44,802 bases of DNA from Aliarcobacter sp. (GTDB lineage: Bacteria; Campylobacterota; Campylobacteria; Campylobacterales; Arcobacteraceae). The notes beneath the pieces were generated by a model. That model saw nothing but the letters and a program-made list of their open reading frames with translations, was not told where the DNA came from and did not search any database. Below are positions 2,483 to 29,234 of the stretch, one piece after another. The translations under genes were made by a program, and so were the position numbers. Position 1 is the first letter of the stretch. Each line of letters starts with the position of its first letter. Location of the stretch: contig JAQVLW010000001.1 of the NCBI GenBank assembly GCA_028703945.1, positions 65,899 through 110,700 on the forward strand, written 5' to 3'.

Positions 2483-2744
2483 TTTTGGACTTTAAGTTTT
2501 ATATAAAAATAGCTTATAAAATATATACAATAAAACTTTTAATTTTTTTGGAAGAAATAAAAAAGAAGCTTCATCTTAAAAAAAAATCTTATAGAAACAA
2601 AATTTCTTAACTAAGGAGAGAGAAAGTAGACAAAACCTCTTATTTGTAGAATTGTACATACTTAAAACTTAAAAAATGCTATTTTAATGCTACGATTATA
2701 AAAAATTATTTAAATTTAGTAATTAATTTATAAAATTAAAAAAA

Positions 2745-3122
2745 CTACTTTACAAAAACTTTTGTATCATAAATTTTATCATCAATCTTAACTTCAAAAT
2801 AGCCTTTTGAAACATTGTAATGTTTAAAAGTTAATTCTTCTGCAATGTAAATCTTTTGTTTATTATAAATAGGAATAGAACTTTCAAAGTAACCTAAAGC
2901 GTTTCCTATTTTTACTTCAATTTTTTTATTTCTAATTTCACCAAATACAACTATTTTTGAAAAACAAATTCCATTATAATCTTGGTCAGTAATTTTCTTA
3001 TGTTGAATATTTTCACCAGTTCCATTTTCATGAAAAACTGCTACTGCATAAGATGCCTGAATATCAGAATTCGCTGCAAAAAGGGTAAAGCTTATAAAAA
3101 GTATAAATATTAGTATTCTCAT
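2745..3122 (-). CDS. Small exported hypothetical protein
   Basis: 125 aa. Residues 1-17 form a typical Sec signal peptide (basic start, hydrophobic core, cleavage near LFAAN), so the mature protein of about 108 aa is probably periplasmic. The rest looks beta-rich with alternating hydrophobic residues, a single cysteine and no recognised motif. It is divergent from the DUF2249 operon. The Fnr-type box at 3173-3186 lies about 34 bp from a possible TACACT -10 on this strand, so joint control is possible but the spacing is 2 bp off the pattern seen elsewhere. I do not recognise the family. Confidence 0.6.
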   Translation of the reverse strand: MRILIFILFISFTLFAANSDIQASYAVAVFHENGTGENIQHKKITDQDYNGICFSKIVVFGEIRNKKIEVKIGNALGYFESSIPIYNKQKIYIAEELTFKHYNVSKGYFEVKIDDKIYDTKVFVK

Positions 3123-3172
3123 AAAAAATATTACTATGTTTTAGTGTAATTTTGTATAAAAGAGGACTTATA

Positions 3173-3214
3173 TTGATAACTATCAAGGAATTATTTATAA
3201 TTAAGGGTTATTAT
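3173..3214 (+). promoter_or_regulatory. Fnr/Nnr-type promoter of the DUF2249 operon
   Basis: A perfect TTGATAACTATCAA box at 3173-3186 (centre 3179.5) and a TATTAT -10 at 3209-3214 (centre 3211.5). The 32-bp centre spacing puts the activator at about -41.5, a class II arrangement, the same as at the nap, nir and nor promoters in this window. Confidence 0.75.
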
Positions 3215-16798: not shown

Positions 16799-17431
16799 AT
16801 GAAAAATAAGTTAAAAGAGATATATTTATTTAAAGATTTGTGTGATAATACTTTAGACAGAATAGGCGAATTTACTACTTTTTTAAAATTATCAAAGGAT
16901 AATGTTTTATTTTATGAAGGGGATGAGCCAAAATATCTTTTCTTGTTAAAAAAAGGTATTGTAAAACTTTATAAAACTTCATCAAATGATAAAGAAATAC
17001 TTTTAAAATATTTTCATTCAAATGAACTAATAGCTGAAGTTGCAAATTTCGAACAAATTCCATATCCGGCAACTGCACAATCTTTTACAGATACAGAGGT
17101 ACTAAGAATTGATTTTGGAAGTTTAAAAGATATAATTTATTCAGACCCAAATTTATCTTTTTTGATTCAAACTTCTTTGATAAAAAAAATAAGAAACCTA
17201 GAAAATATAGTATCTTTACATGTTGTTTTGGATTCAAAAGAAAGAATAGCAAAATACCTATGCGATCACTCAGAAGAGTTTTTTAACACAAAAAATATTA
17301 TTGTTGCAGAAATTCTAAATATTTCACCTGAGACACTTTCAAGAATGTTAAGAGTATTTAAAAATGATGGATTAATAGATAATAAAAAGAAAACAGTAGA
17401 TAAAGAGCGATTAAGCGCTTTGTTTTTATAG
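16799..17431 (+). CDS. Crp/Fnr-family regulator 1 (DNR/NnrR-like)
   Basis: 210 aa. Residues about 10-125 form the cyclic-nucleotide-binding-like barrel, followed by the long dimer helix and a winged helix at 150-205. The recognition helix SPETLSRMLRVF carries E178-xx-S181-R182, the core that in Fnr reads TTGAT. It has only two cysteines (C15, C155), so no Fnr-type [4Fe-4S] oxygen sensor; a DNR/NnrR-like NO role is plausible. A TTGATTATAATCCG near-box overlaps a TATAAT -10 at 16768, which could mean autorepression. AGGAG precedes the ATG. Confidence 0.85.
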   Translation: MKNKLKEIYLFKDLCDNTLDRIGEFTTFLKLSKDNVLFYEGDEPKYLFLLKKGIVKLYKTSSNDKEILLKYFHSNELIAEVANFEQIPYPATAQSFTDTEVLRIDFGSLKDIIYSDPNLSFLIQTSLIKKIRNLENIVSLHVVLDSKERIAKYLCDHSEEFFNTKNIIVAEILNISPETLSRMLRVFKNDGLIDNKKKTVDKERLSALFL

Positions 17432-17436
17432 TGAGG

Positions 17437-17461
17437 AGTTACTAAAAAGTATTTAGTAACT
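17437..17461. terminator. Bidirectional terminator between regulator 1 and the heme-copper operon
   Basis: 10-bp perfect stem (17437-17446 / 17452-17461, AGTTACTAAA / TTTAGTAACT), 5-nt loop, then TTTTC. It ends both convergent transcripts; the stop of the leftward gene lies in the stem. Confidence 0.7.
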
Positions 17462-17990
17462 TTTCAGTATTTATATAAAGTTCTTTAAATTTTTTATTAT
17501 TTATTTCATATTTCTTTTTTTGTTTATTTGCGTATAACCATGCAAATAGAACAGAGAGACCAAATAATCCGTATATTTCCAATTGCCAATCTTTTAATCC
17601 TAATAACACAATAAAATACTGAACAGAAAATAATACAAAAAATTCAATTGAAAATATAAAAACTAAAGTTGGACTCTCTTCAAATCTTAAAGTGTACTTT
17701 TCAATATCTCTCAAAATATTTAAATTTCTATTTATTTTTTGTATATCACTTTTTTTATTTTCTTCTAATGTATCTATTTTTAGATTTTGGAAATGAATAT
17801 TACTTATATTATTTTCAATATTCGTTTGCTTATAATTTTCTAATATTTCAGGATTAGAAAAAAGAAGAGATAAAATCTCTTCCTCCTTTAATAATTCTTT
17901 ATTAGATATTTTCAAACAATCTTGTAGTATAAAATCATAAAGTCCAACATCTTTAATATCATTTGCAACTAACTTTAAATCAATCAACAA
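17442..17990 (-). CDS. Hypothetical membrane protein, third gene of the unusual heme-copper operon
   Basis: 182 aa. Residues 1-100 are soluble, helical and charged with one cysteine (C25). Two transmembrane helices follow (about 108-130 and 137-154, a hairpin), then a short basic tail. No heme or metal motif is apparent. It begins 14 nt after the catalytic subunit and ends at a terminator, so it is very likely made with that enzyme as a small subunit or assembly factor. I do not recognise the family. Confidence 0.65.
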   Translation of the reverse strand: MLIDLKLVANDIKDVGLYDFILQDCLKISNKELLKEEEILSLLFSNPEILENYKQTNIENNISNIHFQNLKIDTLEENKKSDIQKINRNLNILRDIEKYTLRFEESPTLVFIFSIEFFVLFSVQYFIVLLGLKDWQLEIYGLFGLSVLFAWLYANKQKKKYEINNKKFKELYINTEKLLNTF

Positions 17991-18004: not shown

Positions 18005-19645
18005 TTAAATACCATAACTTGATTCTTTATTTTTTGATGGTAAAAATATTCCAATAAGACCTTTTAATCCTATTGACATAATAATATTAAATAAGAATAT
18101 AATCCAAGCAAGTAAAATCATAGCACCACAAACTCCTGCTAAAATCATCATTAAATCAAATTCTCCATTAAAATACATATGTCGTCTAAGCATACCATCA
18201 AGACCAGCCATTCCCATAAATGCACCCATACCAATACCTCCAATTAAATGTAACCAGAAGTGTGTATTTGCTAATTTTTGACTCCATAATTTTGCATTAT
18301 TTGTAACATGTGGCCATAATACATAAACTGCTGAATATAAAGTCATATAAAGTCCAACAATAATTGCAATATGAACATGTGCCCCAATAATCCATTGAGT
18401 ATTATGTAAAACTTTATTCATAGCCATATCTGCTTGAATAATTCCTGCTGGTACTGCTAAACCAAATCCAATTAATCCACCTAAAAGATATTTTAATTCA
18501 TTTGTCATTTTAAGAGGTCTTGCTTTCCATAGGGTTACAAGAGTAATAAATAAAGCTAAACCTTGAGTTAATAATTCAAATGCTGTTACCATTTCTCCTG
18601 AAATTAATTTCATCATTTCAGGTTGACCTTGATCTGCTAATAAGTGATGAGACCATACCATCCAAGATACAAGTAACTCTAACATAAGTGCAGCTCTTGC
18701 CACATTTTCCATAAATAACTTTTGCCCTGTAATAATAGTTGCTAAAAGATACCAAGAACCAGCTACATAAATTAATACAAGACCATCTGCAACTAAATCT
18801 AATCCCCACCAGAACCAGTTTTTATATAAAAGTGCATCAACTGATTTTACATCTAAATTAAAACCACCAAGATCAGCAAAAAGATATACTAAAACTAAAA
18901 TCCCTGCTCCTAAAATGATAAGAGCATCTAAAAATGTATCAACTGTTCCTCTAAAGATTGCAACAACAGGTAAAGAAAGCGCAGGTTCTTTTGTGTAAGG
19001 TTGTCTTCCAGTTAATTTGTACCAAAGATTTAAAATACCATCAATACCAAAACCAGAAATTAAAAGTTCTTTCATCGTTTTGTTTTGATGAGCACCAACT
19101 CTTGCAAAAATTGTTGCATAGATGTTATATATAAAACCAAAAGTTCCTAGCATAATAAGAGCAACCCCTAAGATAAATACAATTCCGCCAATAGTCTTAA
19201 ATTGTTCAGTATCAGCAGGAAGAGGCCAATATAAAGTATATAAAGGAGCATAATTCCATGCAAATGCTGCAATCCATGATAATGCCGTACCAACAGTAAT
19301 TAATAACCAAACCCAGTTTGCTAATTTGACGCTATATAATGGTTTTTTAGTTAAAAAAGGAACTAAAAACATAAATGCACCAAATACCAATTGATAAGTA
19401 GAACCAAAAATTCCAACTATTGGGTGAACTGTCATAATTGAAAAATAGTGTTCAGGTGAACCATAAACAGGAGGAATTGAAGGAATAACAGAAGCTGTTC
19501 TCATAATCATACCCTCAATTGCAGCAAGACCATAAAATAGAAAAGCCATTACAACTGCTCTTAAAGTAACTTTTTGTAGAGCATTTAAACTTGTATGATC
19601 AAATTTATTATCTGCTCCATTAATTAAATCGCTTACAAAACTCAT
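18005..19645 (-). CDS. Heme-copper enzyme subunit I with Asp in the copper site (candidate gNOR-type NO reductase)
   Basis: 546 aa, about 14 helices. Conserved ligands seen: H74 (TVHPIVGIFGS) for low-spin heme, H333-H334 (WSHHLLADQG) for the copper-site pair, and H423-x-H425 (GAHVHIAI) for the two hemes. Where oxidases have HPEVY and cNor has H-LWV-E, this protein has D283-LVA-D287 (WFWWGLDLVADG). So the first metal-ligand His is Asp and the cross-linked Tyr position is also Asp. That rules out an ordinary oxygen reductase and resembles the alternative NO reductases called gNOR, as I recall them. ATGA overlap with subunit II. Reaction NO to N2O is inferred. Confidence 0.78.
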   Translation of the reverse strand: MSFVSDLINGADNKFDHTSLNALQKVTLRAVVMAFLFYGLAAIEGMIMRTASVIPSIPPVYGSPEHYFSIMTVHPIVGIFGSTYQLVFGAFMFLVPFLTKKPLYSVKLANWVWLLITVGTALSWIAAFAWNYAPLYTLYWPLPADTEQFKTIGGIVFILGVALIMLGTFGFIYNIYATIFARVGAHQNKTMKELLISGFGIDGILNLWYKLTGRQPYTKEPALSLPVVAIFRGTVDTFLDALIILGAGILVLVYLFADLGGFNLDVKSVDALLYKNWFWWGLDLVADGLVLIYVAGSWYLLATIITGQKLFMENVARAALMLELLVSWMVWSHHLLADQGQPEMMKLISGEMVTAFELLTQGLALFITLVTLWKARPLKMTNELKYLLGGLIGFGLAVPAGIIQADMAMNKVLHNTQWIIGAHVHIAIIVGLYMTLYSAVYVLWPHVTNNAKLWSQKLANTHFWLHLIGGIGMGAFMGMAGLDGMLRRHMYFNGEFDLMMILAGVCGAMILLAWIIFLFNIIMSIGLKGLIGIFLPSKNKESSYGI

Positions 19646-20232
19646 TTAACACCCCCATTCTTTTCAGAAATATTTTGACAACCTACAACTTCAACTGCAT
19701 CTTTTACAAACATAGCATTTCCTTTTGGTCCTGAATATTCTGTTGACATCAAGTCATAAATTCCATTTTGATTAAATGTCCATAAAATATCATTTTTACT
19801 TCCTGGATTTACTTGCATTTGCATAACCATTGTGTTATCTTTTCTAAATAATCCAAAACCATATACTAAATCTTCACTTGTAACATCAAATAAGACTTGT
19901 TCTTTACAGTTAATAACCATCTTTTCTGTTGGTAAAATAAACACATGTTTTTTTACATTAATATGATAAACCTTATCAGGCGTCATGTCATGTCGATTTA
20001 TATCTTGTGCAACCCAAGGAACAGTATTGTAAGTAAAGATATGATGCCCAACTCCCGCAACAACTAAGAAACCAATAAAACTATAAAAAGGGATTCTTAT
20101 TAGAGATTTGGCTTTTTCTTGCTTCGTTAAGTTGTAGCCAAACCAAGCAACTACAGAAATAATCAAAGCAGAATAGACTGAATATGCGACCCAGTGAAAT
20201 GACAATAACTCAAGTGAATCATTAAAAGTCAT
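19642..20232 (-). CDS. Heme-copper enzyme subunit II lacking the CuA centre
   Basis: 196 aa from the preferred start at 20232, which has AAGGAG 6 nt upstream (a longer frame starts at 20265). Two N-terminal helices anchor a periplasmic cupredoxin domain. In longer-frame numbering, the CuA ligand positions hold Y135 (for His), S174 and S178 (for both Cys) and G182 (for His), with only E176 and M185 kept in STEYSGPKGNAM. It therefore cannot bind CuA and should not take electrons from cytochrome c in the usual way. It is coupled to subunit I by ATGA and driven by a perfect Fnr-type box. Confidence 0.8.
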   Translation of the reverse strand: MTFNDSLELLSFHWVAYSVYSALIISVVAWFGYNLTKQEKAKSLIRIPFYSFIGFLVVAGVGHHIFTYNTVPWVAQDINRHDMTPDKVYHINVKKHVFILPTEKMVINCKEQVLFDVTSEDLVYGFGLFRKDNTMVMQMQVNPGSKNDILWTFNQNGIYDLMSTEYSGPKGNAMFVKDAVEVVGCQNISEKNGGVK

Positions 20233-20254: not shown

Positions 20255-20296
20255 ATAATAACCACTATTAAAGTATAAAAAATTGATATAAATCAA
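20255..20296 (-). promoter_or_regulatory. Fnr-type promoter of the unusual heme-copper operon
   Basis: A perfect TTGATATAAATCAA box (20283-20296, centre 20289.5) and TATTAT -10 on the minus strand (20260-20255, centre 20257.5): 32 bp between centres, class II spacing. Confidence 0.78.
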
Positions 20297-20338: not shown

Positions 20339-20478
20339 CTTAATATTTTTTATACAAATGATTAATTAATTTATAAAAAAATATTTAATATTAAAAAGCT
20401 TGATAAAGAAATATTTACTAAGTAGTGTGGAAAGAAATAAAAAAAGATTAAAAAAGAAGAAATAAGCGACTAAATGGT

Positions 20479-21210
20479 TTATTTAAACCACTTAATCTTA
20501 TCTCTTAAAGTTACAACTTCTCCAATAACAATGATAGCAGGTGTTGGCATATCTTTTGAAAGCTCAACTATTGTTTCTAAAGTTCCTACAACAACTTCTT
20601 GTTCAGGGGTACTTCCTTTTGAAATTACAGCACATGGGTAATCTCTTCTTTTCCCAAGGTTCATAAGTTTTCTAGTGATTAGTTTTATATTATGGAATCC
20701 CATTAAAAATACAATTGTTTCGTCATTTAAAAAAGTTTGCCACTCTATTTGTGATATTTTTTTCTTTGGTGTTTCATGTCCTGTCACTACTCTAAATGAT
20801 GTAGTGATTCCTCTATGAGTTACAGGAATTCCAGCATATGCTGGAACGGCTACAGATGAGCTAATACCTGGAATTATCTCGAACTTTATATCTCTATCAA
20901 AAAGATAAATAGCTTCTTCTCCACCTCTACCAAATACAAAAGGATCGCCACCTTTTAATCTTACAACATTTTCATATTTTAACGCAGCCTGATAAATGAT
21001 TTCATTTATTTCATCTTGTGGAACAGAATGTTTTCCATCTTGTTTTCCCACATAAATCATTTCACAGCCATCTTTTGCCATTTCAAGAATTCCTGGATTT
21101 GCAAGTCTATCATAGATGATTATATCTGCTTCTTTTACTACTCTCGCAGCTTTTAGAGTCATTAACTCCATATCTCCAGGACCAGCTCCCGTTAAATACA
21201 CTTTTGCCAT
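20479..21210 (-). CDS. nirE: Uroporphyrinogen-III C-methyltransferase (NirE/CobA type)
   Basis: 243 aa, normal length for a single-domain SUMT. It has the GAGPGD SAM loop (residues 8-13), YVGKQDGKHSVPQDEIN, VRLKGGDPFVFGRGGEE and the GIPVTHRG segment. It makes precorrin-2, the entry to siroheme and heme d1. It starts 2 nt after nirF and is the last gene of nirC-J-F-E, so supply of heme d1 for NirS is the likely job. A hairpin with a GGTTTA/TAAACC stem overlaps the stop (about 20472-20493) and may be a weak terminator. Confidence 0.9.
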   Translation of the reverse strand: MAKVYLTGAGPGDMELMTLKAARVVKEADIIIYDRLANPGILEMAKDGCEMIYVGKQDGKHSVPQDEINEIIYQAALKYENVVRLKGGDPFVFGRGGEEAIYLFDRDIKFEIIPGISSSVAVPAYAGIPVTHRGITTSFRVVTGHETPKKKISQIEWQTFLNDETIVFLMGFHNIKLITRKLMNLGKRRDYPCAVISKGSTPEQEVVVGTLETIVELSKDMPTPAIIVIGEVVTLRDKIKWFK

Positions 21211-23791: not shown

Positions 23792-23860
23792 ATCTTAACA
23801 TAAAGAAAAAACTAAAGGATTGATTGGTATCAATAAATTATTAATAAAAATGGCTAAAAT
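23792..23860. promoter_or_regulatory. Divergent Fnr-type promoter (nirC operon / Sel1 gene)
   Basis: A perfect TTGATTGGTATCAA box at 23820-23833 (centre 23826.5). Leftward TAAGAT at 23797-23792 is 32 bp away; rightward TAAAAT at 23855-23860 is 31 bp away. One box can thus serve both promoters. Confidence 0.7.
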
Positions 23861-27154: not shown

Positions 27155-28570
27155 TTATCTCTCGTGTCTAGGGCTTTTAGAAGTAGTTAATAAATCTTTA
27201 ACTAAGTATAAAAATCCAACAAACGTCATAATACCAGTTGCTAATCTCCATCCAAGACCTTGAACAAACCATACCATATCTTGAGATACGAAGAATCCTT
27301 CCCAAGTTGCTCCCATTTGAGCTCTTTCAACTAATACTTGACCATATCCAGCAACAGTTAAAGAAATAGTCATACCTAATACTCCAAGAGTAATTAAAGT
27401 AATTGCCATTTTAGAAGCAAATGTTGCTTTCATAACTTTAATACCATTTTTACCTTGTACACCCATATAGAACATACCGATTAGAATAGTAGCATAAGCT
27501 CCAAAAAACGCTAAGTGACCATGTGCAGATGTAAACTGCGTACCATGTGTATAAATATTTACTTGTGGTAATGTGTGGAAGAATCCCCAAATACCAGCAC
27601 CTAAGAAGTTACCAAATGCATTAGTAACAAACCAAGCAAATGCAGGTGAATTGTTCATAGTTTTTTCTTCTGTTCCAGCTTTTAAACCAGTTTCTTTTCC
27701 CCAGTCATAAATAACGTGAACAAACATAGCAACTAAAGGAACAGGCTCAAGTGCTGAGAATAATGCTCCAATTTCCCACCAGTACTCAGGAGTACCAATC
27801 CAGAAATAGTGGTGTCCCATACCTAAGATACCAGAACCAAATAACATTGAAACTTCAATCCATAACCACATTTCAACAACTTCTCTTCTCGCACCAATAA
27901 TTTTGATTAATCCATAAGCTGCTAAACAACCTACAAATACTTCCCATGTAGCTTCAACCCATAAGTGAATTACCCACCACCACCAGTATTGATCCATAGA
28001 AATATTATCAGTAAAGAACATACCTGCTAAGTATAAACCAGCAAGTGCAAGAACGTCAGCCATTAATACTGTTACAATTCCTGTTTGTTTACCTTTCATT
28101 GCAGTTGCAAAAAGGTTAAATACAAATACTAAAACAACAACAACGATACCAATATCGGCCCATCTTGGAGCTTCAATATATTCTCTACCCTCAGTGATTA
28201 ACCAAATAGTTGATTCACTAGCAGGTCCAACTTGAACTAGAATAAATACTAGAACAACTACTGTTACAGCAGCAGTTAAAACATAAAATCCTAATTTACC
28301 AAGTTTGATTCCAACTGTTTCAATACCTGTTTCATCAGGTAATAAATAGTAAACAGAACCAATCATTGCGTATAACATCCATACAACTAAAGCATTGATA
28401 TGTATCATTCTAGCTATAGAGAAATCAAAGATTTCAAAAAGAAAACTTGGATATAAAAACTGAGTAGCAGCAATAAGACCCATTACTAATTGAGCACCAA
28501 ACAAAATAGCAGCAACTACGAAATAGTTGATAGCTAATTTTTGAGATTCAAATTTTAAATTATTTGCCAT
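27155..28570 (-). CDS. norB: NorB, cytochrome b subunit of nitric oxide reductase (cNor)
   Basis: 471 aa, 12 helices. It has all cNor marks: H57 for the low-spin heme, H202 with E206 and E210 (WWWWVIHLWVEATWE), H253-H254 (GHHYFWIG), E275 (SALEPVPL) and H350-x-H352 (SAHGHLAFFGAY). The glutamates are typical of the non-heme iron site and distinguish it from oxygen reductases and from the Asp enzyme at 18 kb. It reduces 2 NO to N2O in the inner membrane. It overlaps norC by 11 nt. Confidence 0.97.
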   Translation of the reverse strand: MANNLKFESQKLAINYFVVAAILFGAQLVMGLIAATQFLYPSFLFEIFDFSIARMIHINALVVWMLYAMIGSVYYLLPDETGIETVGIKLGKLGFYVLTAAVTVVVLVFILVQVGPASESTIWLITEGREYIEAPRWADIGIVVVVLVFVFNLFATAMKGKQTGIVTVLMADVLALAGLYLAGMFFTDNISMDQYWWWWVIHLWVEATWEVFVGCLAAYGLIKIIGARREVVEMWLWIEVSMLFGSGILGMGHHYFWIGTPEYWWEIGALFSALEPVPLVAMFVHVIYDWGKETGLKAGTEEKTMNNSPAFAWFVTNAFGNFLGAGIWGFFHTLPQVNIYTHGTQFTSAHGHLAFFGAYATILIGMFYMGVQGKNGIKVMKATFASKMAITLITLGVLGMTISLTVAGYGQVLVERAQMGATWEGFFVSQDMVWFVQGLGWRLATGIMTFVGFLYLVKDLLTTSKSPRHER

Positions 28571-29234
28571 GAATCGCTCCTGTTACACCATCTGTTGACA
28601 TTCTTGCAAAGTTTCTTGGGAAACCATTTGTATCAATTGATGACATATGTTTTAAAAATGCTACAAGACCCATTGCTTCTTTTTCAGTAATACCAAGATT
28701 TGGCATCATTCTTTGATGTGTTGGGAATTGAGACGGATTTTGTAAAAATTTAGACATAGCTTCTTCTTTCGTAGTAGAATTAGTCATACCTAAATATGCT
28801 CCATTTGGTCCCCATGCTGGATCTAACCAAGCTTTTGTTAAATCTGGAGCATAATATGCACCATTTCCAAGTAATGTATGACAATCCATACAGTTCTTTG
28901 CTTGTGAACCTAATTTTCCTAAATGAAGAAGCTCCGCAGCTTCTTGCTCAGACCAATCATCTCTTCCAAAGAATTTCTCTTTTTCACCAATAACTGGCAC
29001 CTCATGACCTCTTCTTGTATCCATTTTATAATCAATATTATAATTGATTACTGTTGGACCTGGTACTCTTTTTGTAATACCGTTTTTAAGATCAGCGTCC
29101 GTTCCCATACTAATTTGACCCATTGAATCAAATGTTAACCAAATTAATAGTATTGCAGCAAAACCAGTTACCCACGCAGCTGATCTTCTCCAAAAAGGAA
29201 TACTCGTCCATACTGAAACAACTTTTTTTGACAC
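28560..29234 (-). CDS. norC: NorC, cytochrome c subunit of nitric oxide reductase
   Basis: 224 aa, longer than the about 146 aa of Pseudomonas NorC because of an extra periplasmic segment (about 42-100) between the anchor helix (19-36) and the heme domain. The heme site is C115-MD-C118-H119, with a methionine ligand in HQRMMPNLG. It brings electrons from periplasmic cytochromes to NorB. It is preceded by a small membrane gene and overlaps norB, so the order is unknown gene-norC-norB-small gene. Confidence 0.95.
   Translation of the reverse strand: MSKKVVSVWTSIPFWRRSAAWVTGFAAILLIWLTFDSMGQISMGTDADLKNGITKRVPGPTVINYNIDYKMDTRRGHEVPVIGEKEKFFGRDDWSEQEAAELLHLGKLGSQAKNCMDCHTLLGNGAYYAPDLTKAWLDPAWGPNGAYLGMTNSTTKEEAMSKFLQNPSQFPTHQRMMPNLGITEKEAMGLVAFLKHMSSIDTNGFPRNFARMSTDGVTGAIHGK

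Follow-up and report, generated by a model that had tools for sequence, protein, structure and literature searches.

A putative nitric oxide reductase of the gNOR type and its conserved third gene in a denitrification cluster of Aliarcobacter

The window analysed here, a stretch of 44,802 bp from Aliarcobacter sp., carries the genes of a cNOR (NorCB, 27155-29234) and, within the same cluster, a gene for a further heme-copper enzyme. Judging from the letters, an earlier note had regarded it as a second NO reductase, of the gNOR type, and the presence of norCB in the same window agrees with two NOR-family enzymes side by side. The surroundings also turned out as claimed there: one flank harbors nirS, norCB, nirJ, nirF-like and cobA genes, and the other a CRP/FNR-family regulator, a fused siroheme decarboxylase (NirDL type) and napA, with napG and napH likewise within the window. 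Several NO reductase families, gNOR among them, have been proposed on sequence grounds alone, so that a denitrifier with gNOR beside cNOR offers a test of NO reduction by gNOR through deletion of the genes singly and together. The greenhouse gas N2O is formed at the step of NO reduction.

Subunits and active-site residues

The following features were assigned to the two subunits:
18005..19645, minus strand: gNOR subunit I, catalytic heme-copper subunit, 546 amino acids (Pfam COX1, E 2e-52; own clade in the heme-copper tree, 100/100; predicted fold, Z about 33)
18797..18799, minus strand: codon of Asp283, at the position of the TM6 CuB-ligand His (MAFFT, hhalign, invariance)
18785..18787, minus strand: codon of Asp287, at the position of the oxidase cross-linked Tyr or cNOR Glu (alignments; gNOR active-site residue D in PMC8756737, Table A4)
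19642..20232, minus strand: gNOR subunit II, membrane-anchored, cupredoxin-type, no CuA ligands, 196 amino acids from the ATG at 20232 (weak CoxB match; alignment)

For subunit I, the coordinates given in the earlier note were correct, with the minus strand as the coding one. The residues singled out there (H74, H333-H334, H423/H425 and D283-LVA-D287) were all found, and H74, D283, D287, H333, H334, H423 and H425 were invariant in 29 and again in 48 aligned gNOR sequences, the query being counted in both sets. The TM6 motif reads F-W-W-G-L-D283-L-V-A-D287. When MAFFT was left to align subunit I freely with A-, B- and C-type (cbb3) oxidases, eNOR and cNOR, D283 fell into the column of the TM6 His and D287 paired with the cNOR Glu, so that an Asp occupies the position of the Tyr used by A and B types. 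Profile-profile comparison against B-type/eNOR proteins (hhalign, probability 99.6, E 8.7e-25) also paired D283 with the invariant TM6 His. Thus, the proposed exchange of the TM6 His for Asp was reproduced by both methods and that of Tyr/Glu for Asp by the MAFFT alignment, and since both residues are invariant across gNOR homologues, they are explained neither by sequencing error nor by chance. A neighboring residue that might supply the TM6 His was ruled out, as the helix FWWGLDLVADGLVLIYVAGSWYLL of subunit I does not contain any His. The earlier note had named such a nearby His in a protein of an oxygen-reductase clade as evidence against its reading; the helix is free of His and the protein falls into a separate clade.

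Structure prediction followed by structure comparison revealed a fold similar to HCO subunit I structures (Z about 33), but the modelling of the site suggested in the earlier note was informative for the fold only: pLDDT was under 50 at residues 279-292, i.e., the active-site stretch, and therefore no geometry of Asp283 was taken from the model. Further invariant polar residues of the gNOR alignment are located in the TM8 region (E351, T354, E357, T360, and Q361). The match of the subunit I profile to cNOR was confined to the C-terminal helices.

The subunit II gene is located upstream of the subunit I gene and overlaps its start by 4 bases. Its assignment to the cupredoxin type is based on a weak CoxB match, a weak COX2 match in one relative, and the alignment with CuA subunits. 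No CxxCH heme c motif was present in subunit II, and both Cys and both His of the CuA ligands were replaced in all of the 30 aligned loci. Where CNEYCGxGH would be expected, subunit II reads STEYSGP, with a Y for the first His, whereas B-type and eNOR subunits II used as controls retain CxxxCGxGHxxM. With neither CuA nor heme c in subunit II, direct oxidation of menaquinol is the simplest reading, which makes a quinol the likelier electron donor.

Family placement and previous descriptions

In a tree of 22 sequences, the gNOR proteins formed a single clade (support 100/100) on the A/B/eNOR side, apart from cNOR, qNOR, and the cbb3 oxidase, with support of just 68/49 for its sister group. The alignment and tree called for by the earlier note therefore placed the protein separately from cNOR/qNOR and from A-type, B-type, and eNOR enzymes. 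The closest named relatives of subunit I were those of Aliarcobacter sp. STD2_58 (97% identity) and a Sulfuricurvum MAG (91%), followed by Sulfurospirillaceae (86%) and Sulfurimonas/Sulfurovum (79-86%). The protein revealed Asp287, a cupredoxin-type subunit II lacking heme c, a place in one clade with the Sulfurimonas/Sulfurovum proteins, and Asp283 instead of the TM6 copper-ligand His, an exchange which we take to be the defining feature of gNOR. Neither the Gln at the Tyr position together with a retained TM6 His, as in eNOR, nor the H-LWV-E motif and heme c partner of cNOR, nor the three copper His and cross-linked Tyr of A-, B- and C-type oxygen reductases were found in these subunits, which show D283/D287 and lack the TM6 His.

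Based on its own clade, D283/D287, and these relatives, the gNOR assignment of the earlier note was confirmed at the level of sequence: 18005-19645 encodes a gNOR, a type of NO reductase already proposed in the literature. The label follows the published descriptions and the clade shared with Sulfurimonas/Sulfurovum proteins, rather than named gNOR reference sequences. As cited in PMC8756737, PMC11388526, and PMC8906906, proposals of gNOR go back to 2008 and concern, as NorGH, Sulfurimonas, Sulfurovum, and Persephonella (Hemp & Gennis 2008; Sievert et al. 2008; Murali et al. 2024). It was proposed jointly with sNOR and nNOR from phylogeny and conserved proton channels and stands outside the biochemically characterised families (PMC11388526), and it has already been counted in genome surveys (PMC12569097). 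For Sulfurimonas/Sulfurovum gNOR, an active-site Asp at the oxidase Tyr/cNOR Glu position has been described (PMC8756737, Table A4), and the second subunit has a cupredoxin fold and not heme c (PMC8756737). The earlier note had also suggested that NO reduction may be coupled to energy conservation. This part was not supported by the descriptions consulted: gNOR is listed without a predicted proton channel (PMC8756737, Table A4) and is termed "quinone-oxidizing non-electrogenic", with the genes norGH (PMC8906906). Given the conserved proton channels named for sNOR, gNOR, and nNOR together in PMC11388526, such coupling may nonetheless exist.

No gNOR was found on viral contigs, and the plasmid records searched for it contained distant oxidases only. 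On a plasmid of Azospirillum sp. TSH58, an ORF around 2501-3169 (L128) is heme-copper-like, with Tyr at the positions of a copper His and the proximal heme His (YHMF, YFHF).

The third gene and the transcription of the locus

The less expected and fresh part of the locus is a conserved third gene, here called ORF3, and together with the CuA-less subunit II it is the most useful addition made by this analysis. It is listed here with the putative regulatory features:
17442..17990, minus strand: ORF3, third gene conserved in the gNOR cassette, encoding 182 amino acids (two membrane helices predicted; unmatched in the family searches)
20283..20296, no strand assigned: FNR-type box TTGATATAAATCAA, 50 nt upstream of the subunit II start (motif scan; conservation in homologous loci)
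16799..17431, plus strand: CRP/FNR-family regulator gene, convergent neighbor (Pfam cNMP_binding, HTH_Crp_2)
17432..17466, no strand assigned: inverted repeat between ORF3 and the CRP/FNR-family gene, whose ends converge (consensus scan only)
20468..20497, minus strand: terminator-like hairpin after cobA (consensus scan only)

ORF3 starts 14 nt downstream of subunit I, and of 80 named loci, 76 have a homolog of about 200 amino acids following subunit I; in three of the exceptions the locus ends close to a contig edge, and the fourth (L071) gave no match. A profile search in 298 Campylobacterota genomes identified ORF3 in 28, all of them among the 32 genomes with gNOR, and comparison of coordinates showed that it adjoins gNOR in every one of the 28. 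The four gNOR genomes without ORF3 belong to the divergent branch at 62-63% identity, and in two of them a short two-helix protein of 51-66 amino acids replaces ORF3 directly after subunit I (an ORF in L031; L032/L140, L140:2053-2253). ORF3 is under purifying selection, with dN/dS values of about 0.03-0.24 in eight pairs (a ninth pair was not computable). Conservation within ORF3 is highest in the first membrane helix, EFFVLFSVQYFIVLL, a stretch not kept in the 67-69% clade. Compared with its homologs, ORF3 lacks about 20 C-terminal residues both in the window and in L034.

Searches of ORF3 against NCBIfam and PHROGs resulted in no match and against Pfam in none above noise. Its model (pLDDT 79) displayed two membrane helices and helical ends, for which the best Foldseek matches had E above 1 and none was informative. 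No heme motif was detected in ORF3, and no mention of it was found in the literature covered, in which the primary gNOR descriptions (Sievert 2008, Murali 2024) figured as citations. We infer for ORF3 a role in structure or assembly and not in redox chemistry; most likely it is a small membrane subunit dedicated to this enzyme or a factor for its assembly or stability. The evidence seems evenly balanced for the wider proposal that most Campylobacterota gNORs are three-protein systems, in which ORF3 would either be an integral subunit not described so far or specifically serve the maturation of the Asp-liganded heme-copper site, with a short two-helix protein instead in the most divergent lineage (at least two genomes). 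Attempts at expressing gNOR should take in the linked ORF3.

The perfect FNR-type box pointed out in the earlier note was confirmed and occurs exactly in 46 of 72 homologous upstream regions, compared with 0.3% of shuffles, its central bases varying among these regions; it was absent from the two Sulfurospirillaceae MAG loci examined (L036, L038). With at most one mismatch, 14 boxes were found in the window versus 9.2 expected, a mild excess, so that the window alone proves little and the conservation across loci proves more. Two more exact boxes lie at 3173-3186 and 23820-23833, the latter just upstream of cytochrome c/nirJ genes. The hairpin after cobA, detected by consensus scan only, suggests separate transcription of gNOR and the nir operon. 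In three genomes of group f10, presumably Sulfurospirillum-like as judged by gNOR similarity, a divergent gene for an Rrf2-family regulator with a Cys cluster is located beside gNOR (L134:8988-9401, L135:8366-8764, L136:11133-11546). As it scores below the NsrR cut-off, it is labelled "Rrf2 family" only, and it is possibly an NO sensor.

Distribution, proposed role, and comparison with known systems

Of the 298 genomes, 32 had gNOR, 30 NirS, 89 NosZ, 37 qNOR, and 44 cNOR, for which at least 69% identity was required. gNOR was shared by 22 of the 30 NirS genomes (Fisher p 2.6e-19) and 27 of the 44 cNOR genomes (Fisher p 5.8e-22), and it occurred together with NosZ in 25 genomes (p 2.8e-9). At the genus level, all nine NirS genera were gNOR genera (p 4.7e-7), and the link to cNOR was retained (p 1.7e-10); since these tests ignore shared ancestry, for which the genus count corrects partly, they are support and not proof. 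No genome harbored both qNOR and gNOR (0/298), an exclusion that was not significant by genus. NirS was missing from 10 of the 32 gNOR genomes, four of which (G096, G125, G146, and G249) lacked both NirS and NosZ. In addition, a second cNOR-like NorB lineage, 37-41% identical, was noticed (L131:1633-2997; genomes G129, G176, G252, G285, and G292), of which the one aligned, NorB of G292, has a normal HLWVE motif.

As cNOR is also present in most gNOR genomes, gNOR is not needed to explain denitrification there. In five genomes (G125, G131, G146, G229, and G272), however, it was the only NOR-type gene found, and surveys limited to cNOR/qNOR would miss them. G131 (L132, L133) harbors NirS, NosZ, and gNOR with no cNOR or qNOR detected, which makes it a natural test case for gNOR function, though in this draft genome the missing cNOR may be an assembly gap. 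Within the genus of the window, 2 of 10 sampled genomes carried gNOR, and in the tree these two join a Sulfuricurvum protein (support 88). Their small number and this tree link suggest lateral transfer. Arcobacteraceae gNORs come from no fewer than three places in the gNOR tree, as seen with L027 (G203), L070 (an uncultured Arcobacter), and the window, a pattern suggestive of repeated acquisition by lateral transfer.

Altogether, we consider it quite probable that the locus as a whole encodes a gNOR (NorGH-type) nitric oxide reductase, and NO reductase activity of this enzyme is likely. The low-spin heme would be bound by H74 and H425 of subunit I, and the heme-copper center would use H423 as heme ligand and H333 and H334 as copper ligands, with Asp283 as the probable third copper ligand and Asp287 in place of the oxidase Tyr or cNOR Glu. 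Menaquinol would be the probable electron source, given the loss of all CuA ligands from subunit II and its lack of heme c, and two NO, the presumed substrate, would be converted to N2O. Low oxygen probably induces the operon along with the nitrite reductase, through a putative FNR/CRP-type regulator.

An oxygen reductase with an unusual copper site, i.e., a quinol oxidase for microaerobic respiration, would also fit the position of the clade in the A/B/eNOR half rather than with cNOR/qNOR and the strong profile match to B-type/eNOR enzymes, and known quinol oxidases lack CuA as well. However, the cross-linked Tyr and one copper His are missing, gNOR tracks NirS and cNOR across genomes, and a ccoN-like gene of a cbb3-type oxidase (L001) is already part of the genome, so that we regard this reading as improbable. 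Still less credit is given to a NO dismutase or another NO-converting heme-copper enzyme. The changed copper ligand would be in line with it, and putative NO dismutases (NOD), which are related heme-copper proteins, have been found next to gNOR in Methylomirabilis, but the two are treated as distinct families within the same genomes (a comparison by description), and the heme and two copper His are retained in subunit I.

A tentative alternative, less probable than respiration though of more weight than the two preceding ones, is a NO reductase serving detoxification, e.g., of NO leaking from other nitrite-reducing enzymes. It shares the NO reductase chemistry with the preferred reading and differs in role only, so the confidence placed in the two overlaps. 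The ten gNOR genomes without NirS, three of them with the Rrf2-family regulator beside gNOR, and the description as non-electrogenic (PMC8906906) speak for it, whereas the gNOR of the window lies within a denitrification cluster behind a conserved FNR-type box, and gNOR co-occurs with NirS across the phylum.

Compared with known systems, the enzyme shares with cNOR (NorCB) the presumed reaction and the gene cluster, but cNOR possesses H-LWV-E and a heme c subunit and belongs to a distant clade. A probable quinol donor is common to it and qNOR, which also forms a distant clade. B-type (ba3) oxygen reductases are similar in fold and profile and differ in having the TM6 His, the Tyr, and CuA. eNOR falls into the same half of the heme-copper tree and likewise consists of two subunits with a cupredoxin subunit II, but it has the TM6 His, Gln at the Tyr position, and CuA ligands and forms a separate clade. 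The strongest likeness is to the gNOR (NorGH) of Sulfurimonas/Sulfurovum, with the same active-site Asp, a cupredoxin-type second subunit, the same bacterial groups, and 79-86% identity, from which the system described here differs in its host, Aliarcobacter, and in the ORF3 alongside.
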